This document shows, piece by piece, positions 17,545 to 54,935 of a DNA stretch of 64,000 nucleotides. A program made the position numbers and the translations under genes. The DNA is from Balneola sp. EhC07 (GTDB taxonomy: Bacteria; Bacteroidota; Rhodothermia; Balneolales; Balneolaceae), in the NCBI RefSeq assembly GCF_001650905.1, contig NZ_LXYG01000020.1:248001-312000 (forward strand), in the 5' to 3' direction. Positions within the stretch are counted from its first letter, which is position 1, and each line of letters starts with the position of its first letter. Under the pieces are notes generated by a model. The model was not told the origin of the DNA. It did no database searches and saw only the letters and a program-made list of their open reading frames with translations.

Positions 17545-17639
17545 GTCATTCCTGCGGAGGCAGGAATCTAAATCTTGGTTTGAAACTCATTAGAAATATA
17601 TCAAAGAATCCAGATTCCAGGCCTACGCCGTGGAATGAC
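17545..17639. repeat. GTCAT-class palindromic interspersed repeat
   Basis: Terminal arms GTCATTCC (17545-17552) and GGAATGAC (17632-17639) are perfect inverses; inside the left end is CCTGCGGAGGCAGG. It resembles intergenic REP-like elements and shares GTCAT/ATGAC ends with the elements at 34370 and around 53.4-53.9 kb. The rest of the gap 17476-17780 shows nothing further. Confidence 0.7.
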
Positions 17640-34369: not shown

Positions 34370-34415
34370 GTCATCTCGCGTGGAATGCCCGAGATTTAGA
34401 TCTGTCTAAAATGAC
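34370..34415. repeat. GTCAT-class palindromic repeat
   Basis: Ends GTCAT (34370-34374) and ATGAC (34411-34415). Inside are hairpins ATCTCG..CGAGAT (34373-34395) and TTTAGA-tctg-TCTAAA (34395-34410). Same end structure as the elements at 17545 and 53.4-53.9 kb. Confidence 0.65.
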
Positions 34416-52249: not shown

Positions 52250-53344
52250 TTGGCCGAACTTTCAAATTCAGAATTTACTGAGAATCTTTTAGACTGGTAC
52301 AAAGAACATAAGCGGGAAATGCCCTGGCGGGAAGAGAAAGATCCCTATAAGATCTGGATCTCTGAGATCATGCTTCAGCAAACCAGAGTTGATCAGGCCT
52401 GGCCTTATTTTGAAAACTTCATGAAGGTATTTCCGACGGTTTTTGATCTGGCAAAAGCAGATCAGCAACAAGTCCTGAAGGCATGGGAAGGTTTGGGTTA
52501 TTACAGCAGAGCCCGGAATCTACATTCGGCTTCAAAAATGATCGTAGAGGATTATAATGGAAAACTTCCTGAGACTTATGATGAGATCATTAAGCTTAAA
52601 GGGATCGGGCCTTACACGGCCGCAGCTATCACAAGTATAGCCTTTGGTTTACCTAATGCCGTTGTTGATGGAAATGTAATTCGGGTTATCACCAGATACT
52701 TTGGGATTGAAGATGATGTTCGAAAAACCGGAACAGTAAAAGAGGTCCAGTCTCTCGTAAACGAGCTCATAAGTCAGAAACAGCCCGCCGAATTCAATCA
52801 AGGGATGATGGAACTGGGAGCGACGGTCTGTTCTCCACATAATCCGGATTGTTTGAACTGCCCCATTCAGTCGGGATGTATAGCTACTAAAATTGCTAAG
52901 ACAGATATTATTCCCTACAAATCTAAAGCAAAGAAAAAGCCTCACAAAGTAATTGGTGTTGGGATTATTGAAGCTGAAGATGGTAAACTTTTAATTGCAC
53001 TAAGACCTGAAGATGCTATGCTTGGCGGATTATGGGAATTTCCCGGCGGCAAACAGGAAAAAGGAGAAACTATTCAGCAAACGGTAGAACGCGAGCTTCT
53101 TGAAGAGCTTGACGTTGAAGTTCATGCGTTTAAAGAATTCATGACTTTGAAACATACCTATTCCCATTTTTCAATAACAATGCATGCCTGGTTTTGTACG
53201 CTGATATCAGGAACGCCTAAAGCAAAAAGTAGTCAGGAAATTCGTTGGGTTAAAAGATCTGAACTGGAAGAATATCCATTTCCAAAAGCGAATAAGGTGT
53301 TGACGGAGAGGTTGATAGGTGATGAATTGAAAGGTGAGAAGTGA
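52250..53344 (+). CDS. mutY: Adenine DNA glycosylase MutY
   Basis: 364 residues from a TTG at 52250, the only start upstream of the essential EIMLQQTRVDQAWP motif. HhH-GPD domain LKGIGPYTAAAI and catalytic Asp in VDGNVIRVI, then [4Fe-4S] cysteines CSPHNPDCLNCPIQSGC (C-X6-C-X2-C-X5-C). C-terminal Nudix/MutT-like domain with GGKQEKGE...RELLEELDV, which in MutY reads 8-oxoG. Removes A opposite 8-oxoG. The complete Nudix box is more conserved than in many MutY proteins. Confidence 0.95.
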   Translation: MAELSNSEFTENLLDWYKEHKREMPWREEKDPYKIWISEIMLQQTRVDQAWPYFENFMKVFPTVFDLAKADQQQVLKAWEGLGYYSRARNLHSASKMIVEDYNGKLPETYDEIIKLKGIGPYTAAAITSIAFGLPNAVVDGNVIRVITRYFGIEDDVRKTGTVKEVQSLVNELISQKQPAEFNQGMMELGATVCSPHNPDCLNCPIQSGCIATKIAKTDIIPYKSKAKKKPHKVIGVGIIEAEDGKLLIALRPEDAMLGGLWEFPGGKQEKGETIQQTVERELLEELDVEVHAFKEFMTLKHTYSHFSITMHAWFCTLISGTPKAKSSQEIRWVKRSELEEYPFPKANKVLTERLIGDELKGEK

Positions 53345-53386: not shown

Positions 53387-53440
53387 GTCATTTCGAGATG
53401 AGCAATGATAGAGTCAAAGCGACCGAGAAATCTAAAGAAC
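53387..53440. repeat. GTCAT-class repeat downstream of mutY
   Basis: Begins GTCATTTCGAG (53387-53397) and contains CGAGAAAT near 53431, a partial inverse of the left end. Part of the 676-bp gene-poor gap 53345-54020, which also holds the GIY-YIG pseudogene and its 28-bp inverted repeats. Confidence 0.55.
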
Positions 53441-53488: not shown

Positions 53489-53516
53489 GGTCATCCCGAA
53501 CTTGTTTCGGGATCTT
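53489..53516. repeat. Left arm of a 28-bp inverted repeat around a GIY-YIG pseudogene
   Basis: GTCATCCCGAACTTGTTTCG followed by GGATCTT; the same 28 bases occur in reverse complement at 53873-53900 without mismatch. The arm itself contains the dyad ATCCCGAAC..GTTTCGGGAT, so it can also fold alone. Confidence 0.9.
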
Positions 53517-53543
53517 ACGTAAAGGCTTTTAGTCTGTTCTTGT

Positions 53544-53837
53544 TTACCATCCTTTTAAGGTAAAATACCAATCCTCTAATTTTGGATTGTTTTGCTTTAC
53601 CAGATTCCATTTCCACTGTTTATGCCAATTCTTTAGTTGCTTCTCCATTGCTATAGCATCACCTATATTATCGTATTCTTCGGCATATATAAGAATGGTT
53701 AGTTTATACTTTGAAGTAAATAAAGAGCCTTCTCCCAGTTTATGTTTCCACACTCTTGAATGAATGTTATTGGTAACTCCGATTTAAATCGTAGTTCTTC
53801 GATAGTTAGTAAGAAAGTACACATAGCCTTTGTTCAT
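53544..53837 (-). pseudogene. GIY-YIG nuclease domain protein broken by a nonsense codon
   Basis: A 98-codon frame from the ATG at 53837 reads MNKGYVYFLTNYRRTTI, then TAA at 53784-53786, then IGVTNNIHSRVWKHK to the natural stop at 53544. The stop replaces the second Tyr of the Y-V-Y...Y-I-G signature, so the codon was probably TAT or TAC. Family members are about 80-100 residues, often multicopy. The gene is enclosed by the 28-bp inverted repeats. Confidence 0.88.
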
Positions 53838-53872
53838 AGTAAGTAAGACTATTTCAAGAGCAATTCCTTACA

Positions 53873-53900
53873 AAGATCCCGAAACAAGTTCGGGATGACC
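53873..53900. repeat. Right arm of the 28-bp inverted repeat
   Basis: Exact reverse complement of 53489-53516. Together with the left arm it encloses 356 bp containing the GIY-YIG pseudogene. Nothing else was found in the remaining gap up to 54020. Confidence 0.9.
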
Positions 53901-54020: not shown

Positions 54021-54935
54021 ATGAAATTCGATATAAACTATATAAATGACCTTATTGATAAGAAAGCTGAAGAATCGTTAAAACTCGAATTCAAACGAGG
54101 TGATTCAATTGCTGACCGAAAGGAAATGTCAAAGGATATTTCCTCTATGGCAAATTCTGCTGGTGGAGTAATCATTTATGGAATAGAGGAAGCAGATCAT
54201 ATTGCTTCAAAACCCAGTTATATAAATGGTAATGAATACACTAAGGAGTGGCTTGAAAATGTAATTGACTCAAATATCCACCGTAAAATAGATGACTTAA
54301 TTATCTATCCAATTAGAGAAGACGACGACATTAATAAGACTATATATATTATTGAAGTTCCAGAAAGTCAAAATTCTCCTCATATATCAAAAGATGGGAA
54401 ATATTATAAAAGACATAACTTTAAGAATTTACCTATGGAGGAATATGAGATTAGATCTTTGTACTTCAAATCATTGAACCCTGAATTAGTCTTTGATAAT
54501 TTACTTTTAACCAAGAATTACTATACAGAAGAAAAAAAAGGTGTGGAACAATTATATTGTAGTCCAATATTTCAAATTCTCAACAAAGGAAAAGGAGTAT
54601 CTATACATCATAAAGTGATTTTGCATATCAATAGAAAATATAATGCTAGTTTTTCTTTAGATGTTTTAAGAAGCAAAAATGTGATAAGTGAAGGTTTGAT
54701 AGATAAAGACACAATATCAATTACAATTTATGACAAAACACCAATTCTACCTGATGAAATTTTCTCAATTAGTAGATTCAATCTCTGTTTTCCTAAAAAT
54801 TTTATAATCCAAAATAAAGCCGAAGAAGAAGGTGCCGAAATAAAGGTTGAAATTGCATACCAAGGAGGTCGAGATATAGTAAGTCTTTATATAAATGATT
54901 TTTATCCTACCGAATTTATTGACGAATTCTTATAA
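54021..54935 (+). CDS. AlbA_2/Schlafen-like domain protein
   Basis: 304 residues. Residues 10-140 match the AlbA_2 (Schlafen-type) domain: LKLEFKRGDSIADRKEMSKDISSMANSAGGVIIYGI and SPHISKDGKYYKRHNF. The C-terminal 160 residues (LNPELVFDNLLLTKNYY onward) are beta-rich and unrecognised. AT-rich and ATA/TTA-heavy relative to flanking genes, and next to the repeat-bounded pseudogene, which suggests acquired DNA. AlbA_2 proteins include transcription regulators and anti-phage proteins; a specific role cannot be assigned. Confidence 0.75.
   Translation: MKFDINYINDLIDKKAEESLKLEFKRGDSIADRKEMSKDISSMANSAGGVIIYGIEEADHIASKPSYINGNEYTKEWLENVIDSNIHRKIDDLIIYPIREDDDINKTIYIIEVPESQNSPHISKDGKYYKRHNFKNLPMEEYEIRSLYFKSLNPELVFDNLLLTKNYYTEEKKGVEQLYCSPIFQILNKGKGVSIHHKVILHINRKYNASFSLDVLRSKNVISEGLIDKDTISITIYDKTPILPDEIFSISRFNLCFPKNFIIQNKAEEEGAEIKVEIAYQGGRDIVSLYINDFYPTEFIDEFL

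Follow-up and report, generated by a model that had tools for sequence, protein, structure and literature searches.

A 412-bp element in Balneola sp. EhC07 combines a broken GIY-YIG nuclease gene with two inverted copies of a repetitive extragenic palindrome (REP) of the CGTC type, one on either side of the gene. It lies in the window that we analysed, a 64,000-nucleotide stretch (G000:C20:248001-312000) of a genome, G000, of 3.62 Mb in 20 contigs. From sequence comparisons we consider it quite probable that the element represents a small mobile unit in a decayed state, composed of a CGTC-type REP, a GIY-YIG nuclease gene and a second CGTC-type REP, and that in the nuclease these REPs have their missing partner. 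CGTC REPs have been reported from five phyla and, in the available excerpts of the paper describing them, 'apparently lack a dedicated transposase' (Di Nocera 2013, PMC3733652); a clade-matched nuclease gene between REPs is a concrete, testable candidate for the question left open there in 2013.

The two arms of the window unit, 28 nt each and 356 nt apart, are 100% reverse-complementary, and as single-stranded DNA each forms a hairpin by itself (8-bp stem, loop of 5 nt) at −7.3 and −7.7 kcal/mol (z −4.1 and −4.7), which none of 200 shuffled sequences equalled; both properties had been read correctly in the original prediction. The same prediction described a GIY-YIG reading frame of 98 codons. 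The family holds, with a PF01541 match at E 1.1e-9 (G000:C20:301547-301837), but the length is 97 codons, the figure of 98 counting the stop. As predicted, a TAA has replaced a catalytic tyrosine codon, that of the 'YIG' motif (MNKGYVYFLTNYRRTTI*IGVTNN), at an alignment column that shows no variation in 51 of 51 relatives. The arms were further said to be of a type seen elsewhere in the window; other GTCA palindromes do occur there (at 17545-17639, 34370-34395 and just left of the unit), but with different cores, the exact 22-nt core of the arms being confined, within the window, to the arms themselves. Applied across the window, the loose palindrome detector described below returned 17 hits against 20 in its control; there is no enrichment at this scale, so the argument depends on what flanks GIY-YIG genes and not on the window as a whole.

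A PF01541 profile search of G000 found 11 places, six of them of this subfamily (L003, L004, L005, L006, the window copy L009, and L011). All six are enclosed by inverted palindromes, some variant in sequence; the first four genes are intact, and L009 and L011 are broken. A DNA search with L004 added eight half copies at contig ends, four of each side, indicating at least four more copies split by assembly and bringing the family in this genome to ten copies or more. The exact core was counted 23 times and, with up to two mismatches, 81 times, against none in the backwards control at either setting. Chance and assembly artefact are ruled out by the former count and by the eight contig ends, which break inside copies in the way that true repeats would. 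G000 also holds internally deleted copies (L013, L046/L047, L063), short inverted dimers (L017, L023, L029, L063) and single palindromes. The tag reads CGTC rather than GGTC in other copies (L005, L018). The arms were said in the original prediction to have stayed identical while the gene decayed; this is true of the window unit but is not a rule, since left and right arms differ in both L005 and L006.

Palindromes also flank intact GIY-YIG genes in other species. Flanks of 250 nt were scored for a GTCA[TC] tag opening a 5-bp stem with a loop of at most 60 nt, a loose detector chosen after the flanks had been read by eye; the same strings reversed served as control. The named loci are the best 80 out of 577 relatives at protein level behind one peptide pattern, picked by protein match with flanks ignored. 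At 76 of them a tagged palindrome lay within 250 nt of the gene; 58 had one on each side, and 53 had tags facing outward on both sides, against 7, 1 and 0 in the control. The family genes of related genomes, a set that includes near-identical copies, gave 67, 54 and 41 of 72 (control 7, 0 and 0). Tagged palindromes are strongly associated with this GIY-YIG subfamily, and the link between palindrome and gene on which the original prediction turned is present. A phylum name was readable for 68 named loci, which cover 21 phyla; 20 of these have a detector-scored locus, and the sole Verrucomicrobiota locus (L178), missed by the detector, shows an inverted pair by eye. With stems of 6 and 7 the counts among named loci fell to 25 and 22 of 80 (control 3 and 0); in the relatives, many of the repeats next to these genes combine an outer stem of 5 bp with a longer inner portion. 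A division into two GIY-YIG subfamilies, one palindrome-free by an 8-bp-stem detector, was dropped, since GTCA-tagged repeats of a distinct kind, in which the outer stem is shorter, lie beside the second group as well. The family protein matched 32 records of a plasmid collection, some chromosome-sized, among them four taxa named for CGTC REPs in PMC3733652. At the 12 of these loci that were examined, palindromes stood on both sides in ten (nine by detector, one, with tag GTCGC, by eye) and on one side in two.

The nuclease might merely process REP hairpins in a housekeeping role such as fork rescue, with gene and REPs collecting in the same intergenic space. Such crowding should affect control genes and other GIY-YIG genes alike. 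Acetyltransferase genes of the same relatives, however, had a palindrome at 1 of 26 loci and on both sides at none (reversed control 2 of 26 and 0; 4 of 30 loci left out). UPF0213/YhbQ-like and other GIY-YIG families also differed in lacking paired flanking palindromes (4 of 19 on any side, 0 of 19 on both), whereas this family scored 13 of 14 and 10 of 14 in the same search, most of these 14 loci belonging also to the 72-gene set; in that comparison L007 gave no match and the start of L266 was misplaced. Among the nearest folds is that of the structure-specific GIY-YIG nuclease Slx1 (Z 7.1, weak), which would suit such a role, but this role leaves unexplained why the units are inverted, evenly sized and clade-matched, and why they are present in one species and absent from another. 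We regard it as very improbable.

Repeat type was compared with protein clade in several ways. Several GIY-YIG clades share one genome among the relatives, each with its own repeat type as read by eye. In comparisons between genera (67 loci, five of the 72 with broken genes being left out) the best protein match was also the best flank match in 229 of 488 cases, against a mean of 95.6 (standard deviation (sd) 13.8, maximum 147) in 300 permutations of flanks within genomes. A quick tree was drawn for 79 named proteins, with 75 rows carrying a repeat type (L144, a short frame, and four loci without a repeat type left out); along it, repeat type changed 20 times, against 28.8 (sd 1.1) when shuffled; shuffled only within phyla (64 rows) the figures were 16 and 20.1, and in both tests 0 of 500 shuffles were as low. 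These comparisons show that repeat type follows protein clade, between genera and across phyla. At the level of genomes, the clade palindrome was found in all 13 genomes that carry the clade gene (2-81 copies, G000 included) and in 4 of the 45 that do not, so that it is far from equally common in the two groups, as the original prediction required; the backwards control was 0 in all 58, and the clade cut-off, E <1e-30, was fixed after the scores had been seen (9e-31 versus 8e-26 for the next). A same-genus pair is in line with this: G028, with the clade gene, has 11 palindromes, and G010, with no clade-a gene, has 0.

Presence and absence at orthologous sites were observed, and empty sites, suggested as a check in the original prediction, were found for the window unit, L005, Azospirillum and Chryseobacterium. 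The window unit lies between mutY and DUF2400 genes, an interval from which both it and the neighbouring AlbA_2 gene are missing in four of four close relatives; all or part of another GTCA repeat is present there in G001, G002 and G004, and none in G007. L005 is missing in G004, where the sequence continues through GTCAT at the junction, and its site is occupied by a unit in G002 (L071) and G007 (L097). In Azospirillum lipoferum 4B a block of REP dimer, gene and REP dimer stands between sufB and sufC (617 nt); in five of five other Azospirillum plasmids the block is missing and the two genes are 32 to 129 nt apart (the A. argentinense spacing was read from the sequence of a record without annotation). 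The Chryseobacterium unit sits, in three genomes, between genes that we take to be barnase- and barstar-like, and is missing in a fourth (G061). Unit ends read GTCAT...ATGAC. Comparison of S. meliloti strains, where the whole locus was in one record only, was uninformative, as was that of Rhizobium. Presence and absence alone do not tell a gain from a loss; the single-species pattern at the window and Azospirillum sites favours gain. At L017 and L023 (G000:C12:125613-125754; C18:190393-190499) different GTCA dimer types stand in different species, as if the repeats replaced one another. Taken as sequence evidence, these comparisons make it very probable that the REP-GIY-REP arrangement is a mobile unit.

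The nuclease could act by homing, breaking both strands in a resident REP or GTCAT, whereupon the unit would be copied in by recombination through its REP arms. The GTCAT exactly at the junction of the L005 empty site would fit, as would the single-palindrome forms of an outer repeat (L054, L055; see below) and the presence of the homing enzyme I-TevI among the matched folds (Z 6.3). However, the motif was seen at that one empty site and not at two other places: none of the five Azospirillum empty sites nor that of G061 has GTCAT, the inverted repeat found in strain B510 being untagged, and non-coding REP dimers would not spread by gene homing. Free-standing homing endonucleases of the I-TevI type share with the present enzymes the catalytic domain, the fold and the idea of a self-spreading gene, but the units described here have neither intron nor separate DNA-binding tail, are bounded by palindromes and may enter sites lacking the repeat. 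We judge homing to be unlikely.

Part of the local copy number may have another source. Four of the six complete G000 copies (L003, L004, L006, L011) are nested in a second, unrelated repeat with ends TGTAGATGTTAG/CTAACATCTACA. At L003 this outer repeat, bordered by ATTTC on either side, splits a sequence that G001, G002 and G007 have unbroken, and it looks like an ordinary miniature inverted-repeat transposable element (MITE) with a 5-bp duplication that carries the REP-GIY-REP unit as passenger; in L054 and L055 it holds one fused palindrome in place of the unit. The sequence TGTAGATGTTAG...CTAACATCTACA was rejected as the true end of units generally, since L005 lacks such ends and the window copy retains at most a one-sided remnant; this rests on the G000 copies. 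The window copy has no complete outer ends, and its upstream flank (AGCAAAATATAGG) resembles the inner flank of the MITE (AGTAAAATATATAGG).

The nesting also bears on whether the REPs are simply ends used by another host transposase, with the GIY-YIG gene as cargo. That four of the six copies ride in another MITE speaks for this, as does chemistry, since GIY-YIG enzymes hydrolyse DNA and are not known to rejoin strands. Yet the 53 outward-tagged named units measure 405 bp in the median (10-90%: 370-562), with space for this gene alone, and are spread over some 20 phyla; repeat type moreover tracks the protein, within phyla too. Transposase genes beside CGTC repeats are, in the excerpts of PMC3733652, confined to few, fortuitous cases. 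A cargo role is thereby made improbable, and the nuclease itself, judging from this pairing of gene and repeat, is likely to be the mover of the unit.

An intact copy of the enzyme matches PF01541 at E 1.3e-13 with the Tyr, Tyr, Arg, Glu, Asn catalytic set present; across 51 proteins Y6, Y17, E64 and N83 are invariant and R27 is kept in at least 90%, the window copy lacking the second tyrosine. GIY-YIG is the sole Pfam match, and NCBIfam gave none, in the two proteins scanned. Among clade genes of G000 and its relatives the ratio of non-synonymous to synonymous substitution rates (dN/dS) had a median of 0.10 (range 0.02-0.39) in 30 of 190 pairs, the other 160 being left out (dS outside 0.05-1.5 or not computed), and on these codon substitutions purifying selection on the protein is shown. 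Against PDB sequences the family profile retrieved UPF0213 proteins and, weakly, UvrC; the nearest solved relatives are UPF0213/YhbQ-like 1zg2 and 1ywl (sequence E 3.8e-10; Foldseek template-modelling score (TM) 0.59). A predicted model of the L164 protein (predicted local distance difference test (pLDDT) 95.4; predicted TM (pTM) 0.86) lies nearest to UPF0213, Slx1, UvrC-N and I-TevI; Z scores of 6-7 are weak alone, so the family assignment rests on PF01541. A phage origin was rejected, the L164 protein having no match in 50,697 phage records (E 1e-8).

The window arms were compared with known repeat systems. In the available excerpts of PMC3733652, CGTC REPs have an unpaired terminal tag CGTC (often TGTC or CCTC), a stem of 8-9 bp opening with A-T and T-A pairs, a loop of 4-5 nt, a tail that is mostly CCA, and a predominance of inverted dimers; they include Neisseria dRS3 and Rickettsia RPE-4/RPE-6. 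The window arms share the GTC tag, the 8-bp stem opening AT (ATCCCGAA) and the 5-nt loop, and inverted dimers are present at L017, L023, L029 and L063. The tag of the window arms, GGTC, is one base off, CGTC itself occurring in named loci such as L164. Their tail is CTT rather than CCA, which is found in similar form in some proteobacterial loci, again including L164; the paper says 'most' of this tail, so CCA is no required feature. Taxa overlap as well (Azospirillum lipoferum, Sinorhizobium meliloti, Novosphingobium aromaticivorans, Neisseria). The difference is that the paper reports no dedicated transposase, whereas here a GIY-YIG gene stands between the repeats. Its excerpts mention GIY-YIG nowhere; those of RepRanger 2025 (PMC12306157) have no word starting 'GIY' or 'nuclease', and those of a MITE review (PMC10969869) neither 'CGTC' nor 'endonuclease'. 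Across the open-access literature no link between GIY-YIG and REPs appeared among the matches listed, subscription papers and preprints lying outside that scope; PMC9465073 and PMC10928387, in the parts at hand, were merely incidental to the question.

The closest parallel is the pairing of GTAG REPs, and of REP doublets forming hairpins (REPINs), with REP-associated tyrosine transposases (RAYTs; TnpA-REP). Tagged extragenic palindromes, inverted dimers, an enzyme gene flanked by cognate palindromes with further copies dispersed, family-specific pairing and non-autonomous copies are common to both. The enzyme is not: a REPtron has an HuH Y1 transposase (IS200/IS605-like) and a GTAG tag, whereas here a GIY-YIG hydrolase of about 95 residues accompanies the tag GTC followed by AT. 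The likeness to RAYT/REP pairs drawn in the original prediction thus holds in architecture, and the idea that the nuclease acts on the palindromes, which was part of it, is one that we put forward on sequence grounds. By this analogy the nuclease is best read as serving the CGTC REP superfamily in the way that RAYTs serve GTAG REPs. REPs accompanied by an enzyme of their own are a known kind; what is new is a different enzyme and the other REP superfamily.

We propose that the enzyme would recognise the tagged hairpin, probably single-stranded at a replication fork, and nick each of the two flanking REPs at its tag (GTC^AT side). The segment, released or copied, would then be inserted elsewhere by the repair machinery or ligase of the host, and no target duplication would arise. 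That the chemistry is nicking of a single-stranded hairpin is tentative, with slightly less than an even chance of being right. Gene-free REP dimers, internally deleted copies and single REPs would be non-autonomous products moved in trans. With moderate confidence we suggest that GIY-YIG and CGTC-REP units form an unrecognised autonomous mobile class of about 400 bp in some 20 phyla, and that the GTCAT palindromes abundant in many bacterial genomes are its non-autonomous progeny, moved by a stand-alone GIY-YIG nuclease through a mechanism distinct from DDE, HuH, serine and tyrosine transposition. Our results suggest that a short bacterial repeat of one of the commonest kinds, whose mover was previously unknown, is spread by this enzyme family. 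If so, the GIY-YIG domain, familiar from repair, restriction and homing, would acquire a further function, that of driving a very widespread repeat family through a unit of only some 400 bp, and a common explanation would cover dRS3-, RPE- and GTCAT-type repeats.

Several observations weigh against a unit mobilized by its own nuclease. Target duplications, which the original prediction had suggested looking for, are absent from the five junction pairs compared (three at one Chryseobacterium locus), and these junctions show no clear target rule; intergenic divergence blurs the exact targets at the window, Azospirillum and Chryseobacterium sites. An enzyme that hydrolyses DNA without rejoining it would need another activity for insertion. 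No palindrome was detected at 5 of 72 relatives' genes and 4 of 80 named ones (L177, L178, L194, L207), at least one side lacked it at 18 and 22 loci respectively, and orientation varies, with tags inward in, for example, L074-L077 and L119. Two orthologues from other GIY-YIG families (L002, L246) have a palindrome on one side. Because of its near-identical copies the relatives set does not give independent counts, and the genome-level association, with its cut-off chosen after the fact, is confounded by close kinship; the palindrome occurs without a close clade gene in G004 (18 copies), G005 (5), G009 (22) and G025 (1). Finally, the spread of the four nested G000 copies may be owed in part to the outer MITE (one site tested for its 5-bp duplication), and the window copy, from the resemblance of its flank, may descend from a MITE-borne ancestor.

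Features in and around the window unit, with positions in the window.
Feature	Position	Strand	Details
Whole REP-GIY-REP unit	53489..53900	no strand	412 bp
Left arm	53489..53516	+	CGTC-type REP: tag GGTC, 8-bp stem ATCCCGAA/TTCGGGAT, loop CTTGT, tail CTT
Right arm, same REP inverted	53873..53900	-	tags of both arms face outward
GIY-YIG nuclease pseudogene	53544..53837	-	97 codons plus stop, one internal TAA; close copies with an intact gene in G000 at L003, L004 and L006
Inverted repeat GTAAG...CTTAC	53843..53871	-	directly upstream of the GIY-YIG start codon; read from sequence
Left half of another GTCA-tagged repeat (GTCATTTCGAG...GAGAAAT)	53387..53431	+	type otherwise beside a different GIY-YIG clade
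SLFN/AlbA_2-domain gene (PF04326)	54021..54935	+	domain match
mutY-like gene (HhH-GPD and NUDIX domains)	52250-53344		flanks the unit on one side

On the side away from mutY the unit is followed by the SLFN/AlbA_2 gene and then the DUF2400 gene; the SLFN/AlbA_2 gene and the unit, both missing in the four relatives, may have arrived together. The GTAAG...CTTAC motif stands before 39 of the relatives' 72 family genes, in several GIY-YIG clades of the lineage, and is possibly an autoregulatory site; it was rejected as a general part of the units, and its occurrence in 0 of 80 named loci marks it as lineage-specific. The two more distant GTCA palindromes of the window (17545-17639, 34370-34395) match another GIY-YIG clade, none of which was seen among the 11 PF01541 places of G000, and appear to be orphan repeats. 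L102, L107 and L042, apparently one locus by their shared flanking gene, hold decayed clade-a units in G002 and G000 and an open clade-b unit in G007.
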